The notes under the pieces are model-generated. The model saw nothing but the letters and a program-made list of their open reading frames with translations, did not search any database and was not told where the DNA came from. The position numbers and the translations under genes were made by a program. Shown in pieces: positions 29,975 through 38,859 of a stretch of 64,000 nt of DNA. The stretch is taken from contig JAQBSZ010000017.1 in assembly GCA_027623555.1 (NCBI GenBank), forward strand, positions 1 through 64,000. Reading direction: 5' to 3'. This DNA comes from Pseudomonadota bacterium (GTDB taxonomy: Bacteria; Pseudomonadota; Gammaproteobacteria; Pseudomonadales; Pseudohongiellaceae). The stretch's first letter is position 1. Every line of letters begins with the position of its first letter.

Positions 29975-30319
29975 ATGAGCCAGATCGAGCACACCAATCA
30001 ACCCGGGCCTTCGGTCCAGAAGTCCTTCATGGCAAGGATGCTGGCGGGTGAATATGGCCTGGCCATAACCTATTGGGCACTGTATTTTTTCGGATGCAGC
30101 ATCTTCTTCGTACTCGGAAGTCGAATGGTTGATAACGAACAATGGCTTGCCTACCTGGTTATTGCTGCCTTGATGCTGGCTTATACTGTCATCCTCATCA
30201 TTGGAATACGGGCGGCCTACAAGGGACCACAACTGTGGAAGGTAATGTCCAGAACTTCTTCAGTATTTATGATTATAAATATACTGGTGGGTATCAGCAC
30301 TATCGGATTCATCTATTGA
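29975..30319 (+). CDS. Small membrane protein of unknown function
   Basis: Three predicted hydrophobic segments. Confidence 0.5.
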   Translation: MSQIEHTNQPGPSVQKSFMARMLAGEYGLAITYWALYFFGCSIFFVLGSRMVDNEQWLAYLVIAALMLAYTVILIIGIRAAYKGPQLWKVMSRTSSVFMIINILVGISTIGFIY

Positions 30320-30374: not shown

Positions 30375-31817
30375 TTGAACACGTCATCAACCCACAACTA
30401 TTCCCTGGTCGTTAAGAAAGACTGCCCCACCTGCTTGCTAATTGAACCCGTCATCCGGCAGCTGGTGGAAAATTTTGCTGGATCGCTGAACATCTATGTG
30501 CAGGACGATCCGCAGTTCCCGGAAAGCATCCAATCGAAGATTGATGATTCCTCCCTGGAGTTTTCCTATCACAATCACATAGAGATCGTTCCCACGTTGA
30601 TACGCTTTACCAATGGTACCGAAGATTCCCGCATTCATGGGTGGGATAAGAGTCAATGGCAGGAATTTACCGGAATTGAGTATCTCGGTGCTGAACTGGT
30701 GGAATTTAAACCGGGCTGCGGCTCCAAGACTCTGGACCCCGGCATGGAAGAAGTTCTGACTCTGCGTTTTGACAGCGCAGGCTTAACCGCTCGCAAAGTA
30801 CAACTGGAAGAGTCTGAAGATATTATCGAAGCTTGCTATGAACGAGGCTGGACTGATGGATTGCCAGTTGTACCGCCTACCCCTCTTCGTGTAATACGTA
30901 TGTTGGCAGGGACTAACCGGGTCGCCACCGAAGTGATTGGGCAAGTGCCCCCCGACAACATTTCCTGCACAGTAGAAAAAGTTGCCATCAACGCAGTAAT
31001 GGCAGGCTGCAAACCCGAATATATGCCGGTAGTGCTTGCCTCACTCCAGGCAGCACTGAAGGACGAATTTTGTATGCATGGCTTGCTCTGCACGACTTAT
31101 TTCTCGTCTCCGGTAATGATTGTTAATGGCCCTGTAACCAGGCAGATTGGTATGAATTCTGGCGTCAATGCCCTGGGGCAGGGCAATCGTGCCAATGCAA
31201 CGATCGGCAGAGCACTGCAATTAATCATAAGGAATGTCGGTGGTGGTATTCCTGGCGGTATCGACCGGGCCGCCATGGGCAATCCGGGAAAATATACCTA
31301 CTGTTTCGCGGAAGATGAGTCGGACCCTGATTGGACATCACTGGCTATGGACCGCGGATACGACCGTGGCGATTCTGTTATTAACCTGTTTGCCGGCGAA
31401 GGCTTGCAAGCTTTTGTCGATCAACAATCTCGAGAGCCAGCATCGCTGGCCAAGAATCTCGCTAACAGCTTGCGCAGTGTTGTAAACACCCGATCCTTCG
31501 GGCTTGCCGATGCAATTGTAGTGATTAGCCCTGAGCATCGCCGGGTTATCAGAGATGGAGGCTGGAACAAGGAGAAATTGAGACAGGCATTGTACGATGA
31601 ATTAGTGACACCTGGCTCTGAAATTGTTCGTGGCAAGGATGGTATTGCCGAAGGCATGCCAGAGAGACTGAAAGACAAATTACTCAACAAGTTCAGAGAT
31701 GATGGGCTTCATATCGTCAGCGCTGGCGGCAAAGCAGGAATGTTTTCTGCCATAATTAGTGGCTGGGTTGCATCCGGAGAACGGGGCAGCCAGCTGGTTT
31801 CACAATTAATTGAATAA
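30375..31817 (+). CDS. Thioredoxin-fold N-terminus fused to a conserved domain found beside UGSC genes
   Basis: N-terminal YSLVVKKDCPTCLLIEPVIRQLVENF; C-terminal ERGWTDGLPVVPPTPLRVIRMLAGTNR...IIRNVGGGIPGGIDRAAMGNPGKYTYCFAEDE. TTG start; directly upstream of the UGSC gene. Confidence 0.65.
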   Translation: MNTSSTHNYSLVVKKDCPTCLLIEPVIRQLVENFAGSLNIYVQDDPQFPESIQSKIDDSSLEFSYHNHIEIVPTLIRFTNGTEDSRIHGWDKSQWQEFTGIEYLGAELVEFKPGCGSKTLDPGMEEVLTLRFDSAGLTARKVQLEESEDIIEACYERGWTDGLPVVPPTPLRVIRMLAGTNRVATEVIGQVPPDNISCTVEKVAINAVMAGCKPEYMPVVLASLQAALKDEFCMHGLLCTTYFSSPVMIVNGPVTRQIGMNSGVNALGQGNRANATIGRALQLIIRNVGGGIPGGIDRAAMGNPGKYTYCFAEDESDPDWTSLAMDRGYDRGDSVINLFAGEGLQAFVDQQSREPASLAKNLANSLRSVVNTRSFGLADAIVVISPEHRRVIRDGGWNKEKLRQALYDELVTPGSEIVRGKDGIAEGMPERLKDKLLNKFRDDGLHIVSAGGKAGMFSAIISGWVASGERGSQLVSQLIE

Positions 31818-31829
31818 GGGGAGAATGTC

Positions 31830-32354
31830 ATGAGTAGCGATACCGTCATGCTGGACCCAACGGCGGAGTTGCAACCTGTAGAGAAACAACTGGTTGAGCG
31901 GCTTAATAGCCTGGCGGGTGCCACCGTGGGACTGCTGGATATTTCAAAGCCGCGCGGCAAGGAATTTCTCGATGAGATTGCCAAACTGTTGGAGGATATG
32001 GGAGCCAAGGTGAATCGGTATATGAAACCGACTTTCGCCCGAGTCGCGCCAAAGGAACTCAACCAGAGAATCAGTGTAGAGTGTGACGCTGTAATTGAAG
32101 GATTAGCCGACTGAGGTTCATGTACCTCGTGCAGTTTGCATGACATCATGGATCTGGAAAGTCGCGGCATTCCTTCAGGTTTCATTGCGTCCAGTGAGTT
32201 TCAAGAGGCCGCCGATGCACAACAAAAGTCCCTCGGCATCAAGGCAGCCCGCGTTTTTGTCCCTCACCCGATACAAGATAGAACCGATGCGGAAATGACA
32301 GAATTGGCTCGGCAATCGATCGAACTGGTCGCTGCGCTAATTGTCAAAAGTTAG
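31830..32354 (+). CDS. UGSC-family selenoprotein, Sec encoded by in-frame TGA 32112-32114
   Basis: ORFs 31830-32114 and 32136-32354 are one frame joined at TGA: ...CDAVIEGLAD-U-GSCTSCSLHDIMDLESRGIPSGFIASSEFQEAADAQQKSLGIKAARVFVPHPIQDRTDAEM...; UGSC motif; hairpin just after the UGA. Confidence 0.9.
32113..32142 (+). promoter_or_regulatory. Candidate bacterial SECIS element
   Basis: Stem cgtgca (32128-32133) / tgcatg (32137-32142, one G-U) with G-starting loop gtt; loop G is 20 nt after the UGA. An adjacent alternative stem gaggt/acctc starts inside the UGA codon. Confidence 0.65.
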
Positions 32355-32372: not shown

Positions 32373-33557
32373 ATGAGTAGAGAAGCAGTAATTGTAGCAA
32401 CCGCCAGAACGCCAATCGGCAAAGCTTACCGAGGCGCCTTTAATGACACCGCTGCACCAACTCTGGGTGGGCATGTCATTGCCGAAGCAGTCAGGAGAGC
32501 AGGCATTGATCCTGGCGAAGTTGATGACGTGGTCATGGGCTGCGCCATGCAGCAAGGATCGTCGGGAGCCAACATTGGACGAACATCAGGTGTTGCCGCA
32601 GGTTTGCCTAGCACAGTGGCGGGCATGAGCATAGATCGTCAATGTGCATCTGGCATGATGGCCATTGCCACTGCCGCCAAGCAGATCGTCTCTGATCAGA
32701 TGCCGATCGTCATTGGTGGTGGATTAGAGTCCGTCAGCCTGGTACAGAATGAACATCGTAATGCCTATCGAGCCCAGGATCCGAATGTAATCGCCAAGTC
32801 GGAACACGCCTACATGTCAATGCTGGAAACTGCCGAGATTGTCTCCAAACGCTATAACATTTCACGGGATAAGCAGGATGAGTTTGCTCTGCAGAGTCAA
32901 CAGCGAACCGCAGCGGCACAACTGGCCGGTAAATTCGATGCTGAAATCGCTCCTCTTCCATCGAAGATGGTTTTCGTCGACAAAGAAACCAAGCAACAGA
33001 GTGTTCACGATGTAAATCTCGAGAAAGATGAGGGCAATCGTCCAACGACCACCCTGGAAGGACTGGTAGGACTGAAACCGGTATTTGAGGGGGGAGTAAT
33101 AACGGCGGGTAACGCCAGCCAACTCTCCGATGGTGCCTCTGCATCAGTTTTAATGGATAGCAAACTTGCCGAACAGAAGGGGCTCGAACCCCTCGGTGCC
33201 TACCGTGGAATTGCAGTGGCTGGTCTCGATCCAGACGAAATGGGTATCGGCCCGGTGTACGCAGTACCGAAGCTACTAAAGCGCTTCAATCTGAGCATCG
33301 ACGATATCGGTCTGTGGGAACTGAACGAAGCCTTTGCCGTCCAGGTTGTCTACTGCCGTGACAAGCTGGGCATTCCCAATGAACTCCTCAATGTTAACGG
33401 TGGTGCGATCTCCATTGGCCACCCCTATGGCATGAGCGGCGCACGACTGGTTGGACATGCCTTGATAGAAGGCAAACGTCGCGGAGCGAAATACGTGGTT
33501 TGCACGATGTGTGTCGGCGGCGGCATGGGTGCTGCAGGATTGTTTGAGGTATTTTAG
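32373..33557 (+). CDS. Acetyl-CoA acyltransferase (thiolase)
   Basis: [76 protein letters not shown]. Confidence 0.92.
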
Positions 33558-35373: not shown

Positions 35374-36633
35374 ATGAAAAAATTGCCTATTGTCCCGTAT
35401 TTGAAACCCCTTCTGCTGGCCACACTATTATCTGCAAGCAGCGCTGTTCAGGCCCAGGAACCCGTGCGAATCGCCTTCATGGATCCGCTGTCCGGCGCCT
35501 TCGCTTCAATTGGCACCAGCGGCCTGAAACAGATTCAATTCGCCGCCGATTACTTGTTCAATTCCAAAGGTGGCATTCTGGGTGGCCGCATGATCGAGAT
35601 CGTGCCGCTGGATAATCAACAAAGCCCGACCGAAACCCAGATACAATTTCGCCGTGCGGTTAGCGATAACTTGCAAATCATTGTCCAGGGTAATAGTTCA
35701 GCCGTAGCGAATGCTCTGAATTCGGCGGTCACCCGACACAATCGACGCAACCCGGGTCAGGAAATATTGCAGATCAATTATTCTGCCGTCGATCCAATCC
35801 TTACCGAAGAAAATTGCAGCTTCTGGCATTTTCGGTTCGATGCTCATGCCGTAATGAAGTTGAATGTCCTCACTGACTATATTGCCGAGAATCAAGACCT
35901 CAAGAGCGTCTACATAATTGGACAAGACTACTCGTTTGGTCAAGTCGTGTCCGATACGTCGATAAGATTGCTGAACGAGAAGCGGCCTGATATTGAGATC
36001 GTTGGCAACGAATTCCATCCCATCGGGCAAGTGAAAGATTTTACCCCCTACGTGACGAAAATCGTTTCATCGGGTGCCGACGCAGTCATCACTGGCAATT
36101 TCGGTGCGGACATGGTCTCCCTGGCTCGCTCCATCATCGATAATGGCCTGGATATTCCAATCTATACGTTCTATGCCGCCTACGATGGCATCACCGCCAC
36201 GCTGGGTGCCGATGGCAAGAACAAGATTCGACTGATTCACAATGAAACCTCCAACCCGATTCCGACAGAAGAGCGCAAAGCCTTTATTCGTGCCTTCAAG
36301 GCGGCCAATCCAAATAATGACGTTACTCAACCACGCATCATAAATGCGCTTTCGATGATAGTCGCGGCGATGGAAGAAACGCAGAGTACCGATCCTTATG
36401 ATATCGCCACAGCACTGGAAGACATGCGTTTTACCACACTCAGTGGTGAAGAGATCTGGATGCGCGGAGAAGACCATCAGATTTTCCAGTCTCTGCATAT
36501 CTCAGTACATACTGACGAAGGAGTAGAGTTCGATGCCGACAATTCCGGTTTCGGATTGTTCAGTGAATTTCATGTGCCTGCGGAAGAGACCATCGTGCCG
36601 GTAAACTGCAGCATGGATCGCCCGCGCCGTTAG
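35374..36633 (+). CDS. Branched-chain amino-acid/urea-type ABC substrate-binding protein
   Basis: Signal peptide; VRIAFMDPLSGAFASIGTSGLKQIQFAADYLFNSKGGILGGRMIEIVPLDNQ. Confidence 0.85.
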   Translation: MKKLPIVPYLKPLLLATLLSASSAVQAQEPVRIAFMDPLSGAFASIGTSGLKQIQFAADYLFNSKGGILGGRMIEIVPLDNQQSPTETQIQFRRAVSDNLQIIVQGNSSAVANALNSAVTRHNRRNPGQEILQINYSAVDPILTEENCSFWHFRFDAHAVMKLNVLTDYIAENQDLKSVYIIGQDYSFGQVVSDTSIRLLNEKRPDIEIVGNEFHPIGQVKDFTPYVTKIVSSGADAVITGNFGADMVSLARSIIDNGLDIPIYTFYAAYDGITATLGADGKNKIRLIHNETSNPIPTEERKAFIRAFKAANPNNDVTQPRIINALSMIVAAMEETQSTDPYDIATALEDMRFTTLSGEEIWMRGEDHQIFQSLHISVHTDEGVEFDADNSGFGLFSEFHVPAEETIVPVNCSMDRPRR

Positions 36634-36676
36634 TCCGGTTCGTAAGCAGTTACAGAACAGAATCCCCATTAGCCCA

Positions 36677-37627
36677 ATGCTAGATGTCTTTATTTTTGCC
36701 ACTTTAAACGGACTGGTTACTGGTCTGTTGCTATTTATGCTCGCCAGTGGCCTGACCCTTATTTTCAGTATGATGGGCGTATTGAATTTCGCTCATGCCA
36801 GCTTTTATATGCTGGGTGCCTATTTCGCCTATTCCATCAGCCTCTATTTCGGTTTTTGGACAGGGTTGATCTTCGCTCCCCTCATTGTCGGTGTGCTGGG
36901 TGCCTTCGTTGAACGCTACGGTTTGCGCCGCGTTCATCAGGCAGGCCACGTCGCGGAACTGGTGTTCACCTTTGGCCTGGCTTTCTTAATCGAGGAGGCA
37001 GTGCAGTTTTTCTGGGGGCCAGGCACCAAGAATTACCAACAACCTGAACTACTGGACTTCCCCCTGTTCACATTGTTCGGTCAGGAGTTTCCAGCCTACC
37101 GTGGCTTCATGATCGGTATCTCCATAACCATCTTCATTGGCCTTTACTATCTATTAACTCGCAGTCGTATCGGCATAATTATTCAGGCCGCCATCACCCA
37201 TCCCAAAACCGTCGCCAATCTTGGCCACAACGTACCGCTGATCTTCATGGGAGTATTCGGAGTAGGCACGGCCCTGGCTGGAGTCGCCGGTGTTATCGCC
37301 GGCCCGGTATTGACGACATTTCCCGGCATGGCCGTCGTGTTAGGGAGCATTGTCTTCGTGATAGTTGTCATTGGCGGGCTCGGTTCCCTGGCAGGTGCCT
37401 TCATCGCTTCGTTGTTAATAGGGCTGCTACAGTCTTATGCCATAGCCTCGGATGTTGGTGTGCCGGACCTGTTAAACCTGTTAGGTCTGGAATTTGCGCG
37501 TGACCATCCATTAACCGACCTGTGGACTATGACGCTGCCACAGATTGCTCCGATTCTGCCATTTCTTTTGTTAGTGCTGGTACTGATCTTTCGGCCTACT
37601 GGTCTGTTAGGAAAACGGGAACAGTAA
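36677..37627 (+). CDS. livH: Branched-chain amino-acid-type ABC permease (LivH-like)
   Basis: GLTLIFSMMGVLNFAHASFYMLGAYFAYSI; C-terminal IFRPTGLLGKREQ. Confidence 0.85.
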   Translation: MLDVFIFATLNGLVTGLLLFMLASGLTLIFSMMGVLNFAHASFYMLGAYFAYSISLYFGFWTGLIFAPLIVGVLGAFVERYGLRRVHQAGHVAELVFTFGLAFLIEEAVQFFWGPGTKNYQQPELLDFPLFTLFGQEFPAYRGFMIGISITIFIGLYYLLTRSRIGIIIQAAITHPKTVANLGHNVPLIFMGVFGVGTALAGVAGVIAGPVLTTFPGMAVVLGSIVFVIVVIGGLGSLAGAFIASLLIGLLQSYAIASDVGVPDLLNLLGLEFARDHPLTDLWTMTLPQIAPILPFLLLVLVLIFRPTGLLGKREQ

Positions 37628-38859
37628 TGGCCTTTCTCAAAAAATCAACAATCTGGATCGCGTACTTGCTTGCATTGCTAGTTCTGCCGCAATTCTTCAA
37701 TTCGATTCTGGCCATCTCTATTTACAACCAGATGGCCATCGCCATTGTCTTCGCCCTGAGCTACAACATGTTGTTAGGCCAGGGTGGCATGCTGTCTTTC
37801 GGTCACGCCGTGTATTTCGGTCTTGGTGGATTCTTGGCCGTGCATACCCTGATTATGATCGAATTCGAAACGGTCTATTTCTCAATAATCTTCATTCCCC
37901 TGGTTGGTGGAGTGATAGGTCTGCTGGCCGCTATCTTCATCGGCAGTTTCTCGACTCACAAGGCTGGCACTGTCTTCGCCATGATCTCGCTGGGCATAGG
38001 AGAATTGATTGCTGCCTCATCACTGATCTTTGTCAGCTTCTTCGGGGGTGAAGCGGGTGTGAGTGGAGACCGCACGTTCGGACCACCGCTGTTTGGGGTT
38101 GAGTTTTTGCAGGATGTGGAAATCTACTATCTGGCTGCTGGCTGGGTATTTATCGCGACCGTGTTTATGTACCTGTTTACTCAGACACCCGCGGGTCGCA
38201 TGGCTAATGCCGTACGCGACAACCCGGAACGGGCCGAATTCATCGGGTATAGTGCCAGGCGAGTGCGCTTCATCTCCTTTTGTGCCGCCGGCTTCTTCGC
38301 GGGAATCGCCGGAGGTTTGTTTGCACTGAATTACGAATTTATCACCGAAGAGAATCTCAATGCAGCGACCTCGGGTCGTGTGCTACTGATGGCCTACATC
38401 GGCGGCCTGGGTTACTTCATCGGTCCCATTGTTGGCGCCGTAATCCTCACCCTGATGAACTCACTGCTTAGCAACTACAGTGAATTGTGGATGCTCTACC
38501 TCGGCATATTGTTCCTGCTCACGGTGATGTTTCTCCCGAGAGGATTTGCTGGATTCATCATGATGCATCAGGTCGCCTGGATACGCGGCAAACTGCACAC
38601 TCTGTTCATTCCCTATCTGCTCACGGGTATCCCGGCGCTGATCTTAATTCTAAGCTGTGTTGCCTTACTGGAGATGAGCCATATCGAGGAGGAAGTTCTG
38701 CACTATCTGGGCCTGGAACTGAATCCAGCAACCTTGTTAACCTGGGTGATTACGATTGTCATCGCCAGCGCCTCATTGTTTGCCATTCGCCTGACCTTGC
38801 CTCGATTAAGAGCAGCCTGGGAAGCGGCCAACGCAATTCCCGATAGTGAGGATGGCTAG
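37627..38859 (+). CDS. livM: Branched-chain amino-acid-type ABC permease (LivM-like)
   Basis: AIVFALSYNMLLGQGGMLSFGHAVYFGLGGF; start at 37627 preferred over 37522. Confidence 0.85.
   Translation: MAFLKKSTIWIAYLLALLVLPQFFNSILAISIYNQMAIAIVFALSYNMLLGQGGMLSFGHAVYFGLGGFLAVHTLIMIEFETVYFSIIFIPLVGGVIGLLAAIFIGSFSTHKAGTVFAMISLGIGELIAASSLIFVSFFGGEAGVSGDRTFGPPLFGVEFLQDVEIYYLAAGWVFIATVFMYLFTQTPAGRMANAVRDNPERAEFIGYSARRVRFISFCAAGFFAGIAGGLFALNYEFITEENLNAATSGRVLLMAYIGGLGYFIGPIVGAVILTLMNSLLSNYSELWMLYLGILFLLTVMFLPRGFAGFIMMHQVAWIRGKLHTLFIPYLLTGIPALILILSCVALLEMSHIEEEVLHYLGLELNPATLLTWVITIVIASASLFAIRLTLPRLRAAWEAANAIPDSEDG

Follow-up and report, generated by a model that had tools for sequence, protein, structure and literature searches.

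Selenoproteins of the UGSC family have been known since at least 2008, when the Global Ocean Sampling (GOS) survey found them among the commonest selenoprotein families, with 255 Sec and 21 Cys forms. The same survey supposed that UGSC adopts a thioredoxin-like fold and noted its fusion to a domain named Unknown_1 (PMC2398784). Later selenoprotein surveys list UGSC without a function, and no experimental study of the family was found in the open-access literature. The enzymes with which we compare it are the reductases of glycine, sarcosine, betaine, and D-proline, represented by the selenoproteins GrdB and PrdB (PF07355, TIGR01917, TIGR04483). The GrdB motif is UxxCxxC (PMC13188914), and glycine reductase is driven by thioredoxin and works with a Sec-carbon adduct (PMC10298544). 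The monofluoroacetate proteins FarB/FarE of Synergistota provide a precedent for the use of GrdB-type Sec proteins on other C-X bonds (PMC10838667); these are bona fide GrdB/GrdE homologs, whereas UGSC and the partner protein described below are not.

Here we describe a UGSC-family gene and its neighbors in the window, that is, the whole stretch of 64,000 nucleotides that was analyzed (Table 1).

Table 1. Coordinates of the features at the UGSC locus, numbered from the first nucleotide of the window
Feature	Position	Strand	Remarks
Small predicted membrane protein	29975..30319	+	Upstream of partner; conserved in close group only
Partner gene	30375..31817	+	480 aa; core without Pfam or NCBIfam model; ends 12 nt before UGSC gene
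Partner N-terminal thioredoxin-like domain	30375..30671	+	CPTC at residues 17-20 (30423-30434); thioredoxin profile match E=4e-5; Foldseek thioredoxin matches
Partner core domain (GWTDGLPVVPPT... family, ~330 aa)	30822..31814	+	Alignments A3 and A6; no NCBIfam match
Shine-Dalgarno-like AAGGGGAG	Directly upstream of UGSC gene	+	
UGSC-family selenoprotein gene	31830..32354	+	174 aa, Sec = residue 95; PF24696 E=2.7e-41, NF041046 148.5 bits (cut-off 125)
Sec-UGA codon	32112..32114	+	TGA in 80/80 related loci; TGC/TGT in Cys-type homologs
bSECIS hairpin	32127..32143	+	7-bp stem, GUU apical loop 32134-32136, 19 nt past UGA
Acetyl-CoA C-acyltransferase (thiolase)	32373..33557	+	18 nt past UGSC gene, same strand

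A UGSC gene with an in-frame UGA

Two open reading frames, at 31830-32114 and 32136-32354, lie in the same frame and are separated by a TGA. A sequence-only reading had taken them for the two parts of one selenoprotein gene with a GLAD-U- motif and coding character on both sides of the TGA. The translation bears this out, as position 32136 is an internal TTG only, the frame is open immediately past the TGA, and the read-through product contains ...EGLADUGSCTSCSLHDIMD... at its Sec residue. The proposed membership of UGSC, a family which the GOS survey confirms as known from marine metagenomes (PMC2398784), also holds, since both curated models are matched above their cut-offs; PF24696 gave 142 bits against a cut-off of 25 and was covered from profile position 2 to 170 of 172.

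A total of 80 related loci with 57-84% identity were retrieved from the genome collection. All of them carry the TGA, within EGLAD/EALAD/ESLAD-U-GSCTSCSL, and conservation flanks it on either side; no homolog terminating at this TGA was found. More distant homologs have Cys in place of Sec, which had been suggested as a check: one of them is 42% identical (DCGSCTSCS), and Cys-type forms were found at three loci (L104, L114, and L119) and in plasmid copies, the pairs of Natrinema and Arthrobacter being of this type. Across 23 diverse members of the family, C/U95, G96, S97, C98, D105, F124, and P147 are invariant. In one further homolog (L118, G450:C6:12789-13246), Cys replaces Sec, another TGA lies downstream (EKF-TGA-PAG, with Trp in a relative), and the frame is broken; this is perhaps a decayed copy. 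The standard code would give a stop at 32112-32114 and leave the downstream half as a remnant or a separate ORF, but this reading can be regarded as already refuted by the sharing of the TGA among all 80 relatives, the coding conservation around it, the existence of Cys replacements, and the presence of both Sec machinery and a bSECIS element.

With the family as described (PF24696, NF041046; PMC2398784), the gene shares a match along the whole length, the D-U-G-S-C motif, the bSECIS, a host among marine bacteria, and Cys homologs elsewhere. Nothing essential differs, and in this locus the neighboring partner has a fused thioredoxin domain. The gene adds a member to an established family, part of which is hidden, with some Sec-type copies still truncated or split at the TGA in public annotation. 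Such truncation by standard gene callers had been expected, and it can be seen in the plasmid records of Acidovorax sp. T1, where the UGSC CDS was ended at the TGA, and of Paracoccus ferrooxidans, where UGSC was split into two "hypothetical proteins".

Selenocysteine signal and host machinery

The rules for a bSECIS ask for a spacing of 16-37 nt, a G within the first two loop positions, and an MFE of -7.5 or lower (reviewed in PMC13188914). The hairpin downstream of the UGA, which had been noticed earlier as a bSECIS-like element with a G-starting loop about 20 nt away and within the usual spacing, agrees with all three (19 nt, GUU, and -18.2 kcal/mol for a 48-nt segment). Its stem arms occupy 32127-32133 and 32137-32143. 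Compared with dinucleotide shuffles, the energy of the segment has z = -2.7, and among synonymous recodings only 2% folded as well as the native segment. Of 58 distinct Sec-type sequences, 56 encode the loop Ser by AGT, as do the two plasmid copies of Sec type, whereas none of ten Cys-type homologs uses this codon there; the conserved G-U loop is kept by Sec forms only. Covariation in the stem exceeded that of all 500 shuffles on two measures (cells changed on both sides and covariation score), and would count as supporting evidence only, because related sequences inflate such counts. A promoter scan gave hits no more numerous than in shuffles.

The genome of the host, 4.5 Mb in size and 97.5% complete, contains all of selA, selB, selC, and selD, the genes for which the sequence-only reading had proposed a search. 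The tRNA-Sec scored 65 bits, above the gathering score of 47, and has the anticodon UCA according to ARAGORN, while SelB (407 bits), SelA (558 bits), and SelD (285 bits) are all above curated cut-offs. The UGA at 32112 is predicted to be read as Sec by means of the bSECIS and this SelA/B/C/D set. With the Sec genes in the host and homologs that continue past the TGA, the earlier interpretation of the gene as a selenoprotein is supported. The host SelD (L018:262-2529, contig C12) is 755 aa long and has an NADH-dehydrogenase-like domain fused at its N terminus, the Ndh-SelD form reported in the GOS paper (PMC2398784).

The partner gene

The gene preceding UGSC encodes a protein, here called the partner, that adjoins UGSC in 80 of the 80 close relatives. 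In an order-wide set of 195 genomes, above-cut-off copies of UGSC and of the partner were found in the identical 16 genomes, with 23 copies of each, and all 23 pairs were adjacent at gaps of 1-194 nt; the probability calculated for this co-occurrence (p=9e-24) is only indicative, as the genomes are related. The arrangement varies, with the partner first, UGSC first, or, once, the two genes convergent, and both are fused in one frame in genome G077 and in Variovorax. Because gene order varies and fusions exist, the association is not just the inheritance of one gene order. Taken over these genomes, the distribution suggests that the partner is an obligate companion of UGSC, and we consider it highly likely that a Sec-inserting UGSC gene works with the partner at this locus.

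A second pair is present in the host's own genome (contig C26), and pairs were also found on plasmids in haloarchaea, actinobacteria, rhizobia, Paracoccus, Acidovorax, and Roseovarius. On three haloarchaeal plasmids, the pair is accompanied by DUF6282 genes (L129:9656-10489, L138:9660-10511, and L137:2811-3707). On plasmid pFER4 of Paracoccus ferrooxidans (L132), the pair lies within 8 kb of selA, selB, DsrE-like, TusA-like, and cysteine desulfurase genes, a set resembling a selenium island on a plasmid. At another locus (L106), a SelA gene and a SelB-like gene adjoin the pair.

The thioredoxin domain is missing from the partner in distant lineages. Searches of the partner core against NCBIfam yielded nothing meaningful (three unrelated families, E 0.066 or worse). 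The partner has no invariant Cys, Cys212 being nearly invariant, so that it is not an obvious pyruvoyl proprotein of the GrdE/PrdA type; its invariant residues include DGLP and H388. An assignment to GrdE/PrdA was rejected as no model matched, and the partner does not qualify as a pyruvoyl-type subunit. A relation to class I fumarase was likewise rejected, since the Foldseek match (E 3e-5) has a TM of only 0.24 and an rmsd of 15.8 A. The UGSC/Unknown_1 fusion drawn in Fig. S1 of the GOS paper (PMC2398784) resembles the fused pairs of G077 and Variovorax, whereas UGSC and the partner are separate genes in the window. From these fusions, we infer that the partner is probably Unknown_1.

Predicted fold and relation to GrdB and PrdB

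An AF2 model of UGSC, built from a 23-row alignment, reached a pLDDT of 94 and shows strands alternating with helices, with Sec95 at the beginning of helix 96-111 and following strand 87-93. The best interpretable Foldseek matches in the PDB were flavodoxins and lumazine synthases (TM ~0.45), some of these flavodoxins being fusion partners of receptors, and no thioredoxin was found among the 50 best PDB matches. A sequence search for related solved structures returned nothing meaningful. The model predicts a single flavodoxin-like alpha/beta domain in which Sec95 sits where a helix begins, just past the third strand. A thioredoxin fold for UGSC was rejected on the basis of the AF2 model and Foldseek, and the predicted fold departs from the one suggested in 2008 (PMC2398784); UGSC does not pass as a thioredoxin-fold selenoprotein, and only the N-terminal domain of the partner is thioredoxin-like. 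The Sec motif of the family is UxxC, extended to UxxCxxC in the window's protein, and the final Cys is not universal among the 23 members.

Apart from the family's own model, the NCBIfam model most often matched by the 23 members was TIGR01917 (glycine reductase selenoprotein B; 8 of 23, best E=4.8e-4). Six members matched the sarcosine GrdF model, and betaine GrdH, TIGR01918, and PrdB were also among the matches. Real UGSC sequences outscored 20 shuffles of each. A comparison by hhalign of UGSC with a combined GrdB and PrdB profile gave 87% (E=3.7e-6), with Sec aligned to Sec, GIP to GIP, and PHP to PHP, and a comparison with GrdB alone gave 75%. The combined profile consisted of four GrdB-type and nine PrdB or PrdB-like sequences, drawn from Acetoanaerobium, Peptoclostridium, Lactobacillales, Terrisporobacter, Roseomonas, and the window's own genus. 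When UGSC was aligned directly by hhalign with six same-genus PrdB-like proteins, the result was a non-significant 8%, which rose to 87% once real GrdB and PrdB joined the set. The similarity spans only ~65-90 residues at <30% identity. The window's UGSC scored 14.2 bits with TIGR01917 against a cut-off of 602, and did not match PF07355 at E 0.1 or better. Since it falls below the GrdB cut-offs, UGSC would be a remote relative and not a member, and these profile comparisons point to a distant kinship with the Sec domain of GrdB/PrdB from glycine and D-proline reductase.

In GrdB/PrdB, as in UGSC, Sec stands in a UxxC or UxxCxxC motif after a DAVI strand, and the GIP and PHP motifs are in register; the thioredoxin dependence of glycine reductase can be counted as a further likeness. 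UGSC differs in its length of 174 residues, without the N-terminal region of GrdB, and in its occurrence in marine Gammaproteobacteria and haloarchaea, not only in amino-acid-fermenting anaerobes. No GrdA, GrdE, or PrdA was seen beside UGSC in the loci examined. Other genomes of the same genus (L123:1447-2322, L124:1090-1977, and L125-L128) encode a PrdB/GrdB-like protein of ~290 aa that is interrupted in frame by a TGA (VDVAILVPL-U-PVCHQT); no such TGA-split protein is present in the window's own genome.

Gene neighborhood and electron supply

In the window and in close relatives, the partner carries a fused thioredoxin. The gene order is trxB-trxA-partner-UGSC in Arthrobacter and partner-UGSC-trxB in Roseovarius, and many loci, such as those of haloarchaea and the host's own second copy, have no thioredoxin link.

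The thiolase gene that follows UGSC is probably part of the same operon. Of the 62 loci in the closest group, 61 have it after UGSC, the one exception being a contig end, and it is absent from all 18 Halieaceae-type loci, the pair lying between kdsB- and murB-like genes in Halieaceae. A KAS III-like gene follows UGSC at two distant loci (L106 and L107). Other neighbors of the pair include CoA transferases, malonyl-CoA enzymes, HMG-CoA lyase, PEP-mutase-type enzymes, and TTT/TRAP uptake genes. The neighbor genes point to small-carboxylate catabolism and name no particular substrate; deducing one from the neighborhood was rejected, as contexts vary too much. Farther downstream in the window (35374-38859, + strand) are branched-chain amino acid/urea-type ABC transporter genes, comprising a substrate-binding protein and two permease-like ORFs.

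A proposed selenoenzyme and its alternatives

The fusion or adjacency of thioredoxin and the precedent of glycine reductase (PMC10298544) form the basis for a mechanism in which the locus encodes a two-subunit, thioredoxin-linked selenoenzyme. UGSC would be a stand-alone version of the GrdB/PrdB Sec domain, and the partner would aid the binding or activation of a small carboxylate or acyl substrate. By attacking a carbon-heteroatom bond, the selenolate would form a Se-adduct, which Cys98 would displace to give a selenenylsulfide, and the fused or neighboring thioredoxin, together with its reductase, would regenerate the selenolate. The product may then enter acyl-CoA catabolism through the thiolase here and through other CoA enzymes elsewhere. 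For this scheme as a whole, chemistry included, we see roughly even chances.

Alternatively, UGSC could be an antioxidant-type thiol/selenol oxidoreductase or peroxidase with the thioredoxin-like fold supposed by the GOS authors, and the partner a regulatory or client protein. The UxxC motif and the Trx system adjoining or fused to the partner are compatible with this function, but we regard it as unlikely in the face of the confident flavodoxin-like model, with no thioredoxin among its top structure matches, and of the profile matches to GrdB/PrdB. The neighbors, moreover, are mostly catabolic genes (CoA transferases, thiolases, and TTT/TRAP transporters) and not stress genes. It is likewise improbable that UGSC and the partner form a carboxylate-activating or isomerizing enzyme whose Sec serves as a covalent nucleophile with no net reduction, thioredoxin just keeping Sec reduced. 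A flavodoxin/lumazine-synthase-like fold and the plasmid setting of the pair, with lyases, CoA transferases, and aldolases around it, would suit such an enzyme, as would the weak, low-TM similarity of the partner core to class I fumarate hydratase, were that match not unreliable; fusion or adjacency to Trx, however, better fits an enzyme that consumes reductant.

A last proposal extends the two-subunit reductase and does not exclude it. In glycine reductase, GrdC is a condensing-enzyme-type acyl acceptor, and the thiolase at 32373 could similarly accept an acyl group as a functional part of the enzyme. Its near-constant position after UGSC in the close loci and the KAS III-like genes at L106 and L107 speak for such a role, which is nonetheless quite doubtful given that the 18 Halieaceae-type loci have no adjoining thiolase and most other distant loci no prominent one.

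Beyond the sequence-only reading, the analysis adds the predicted flavodoxin-like fold, the link to GrdB/PrdB, the apparently obligate partner, and the association with thioredoxin. Together with a likely electron donor and a distant family relationship, the partner would turn UGSC from an "unknown redox protein" into a testable enzyme. More broadly, and with somewhat less confidence than for the scheme proposed above, we tentatively suggest that UGSC and its partner may constitute a widespread and previously unrecognized class of thioredoxin-driven reductases, in which a free-standing GrdB-like Sec domain and a new substrate-binding protein would cleave a carbon-heteroatom bond during carboxylate breakdown in marine bacteria, and of which haloarchaea and actinobacteria have Cys versions.
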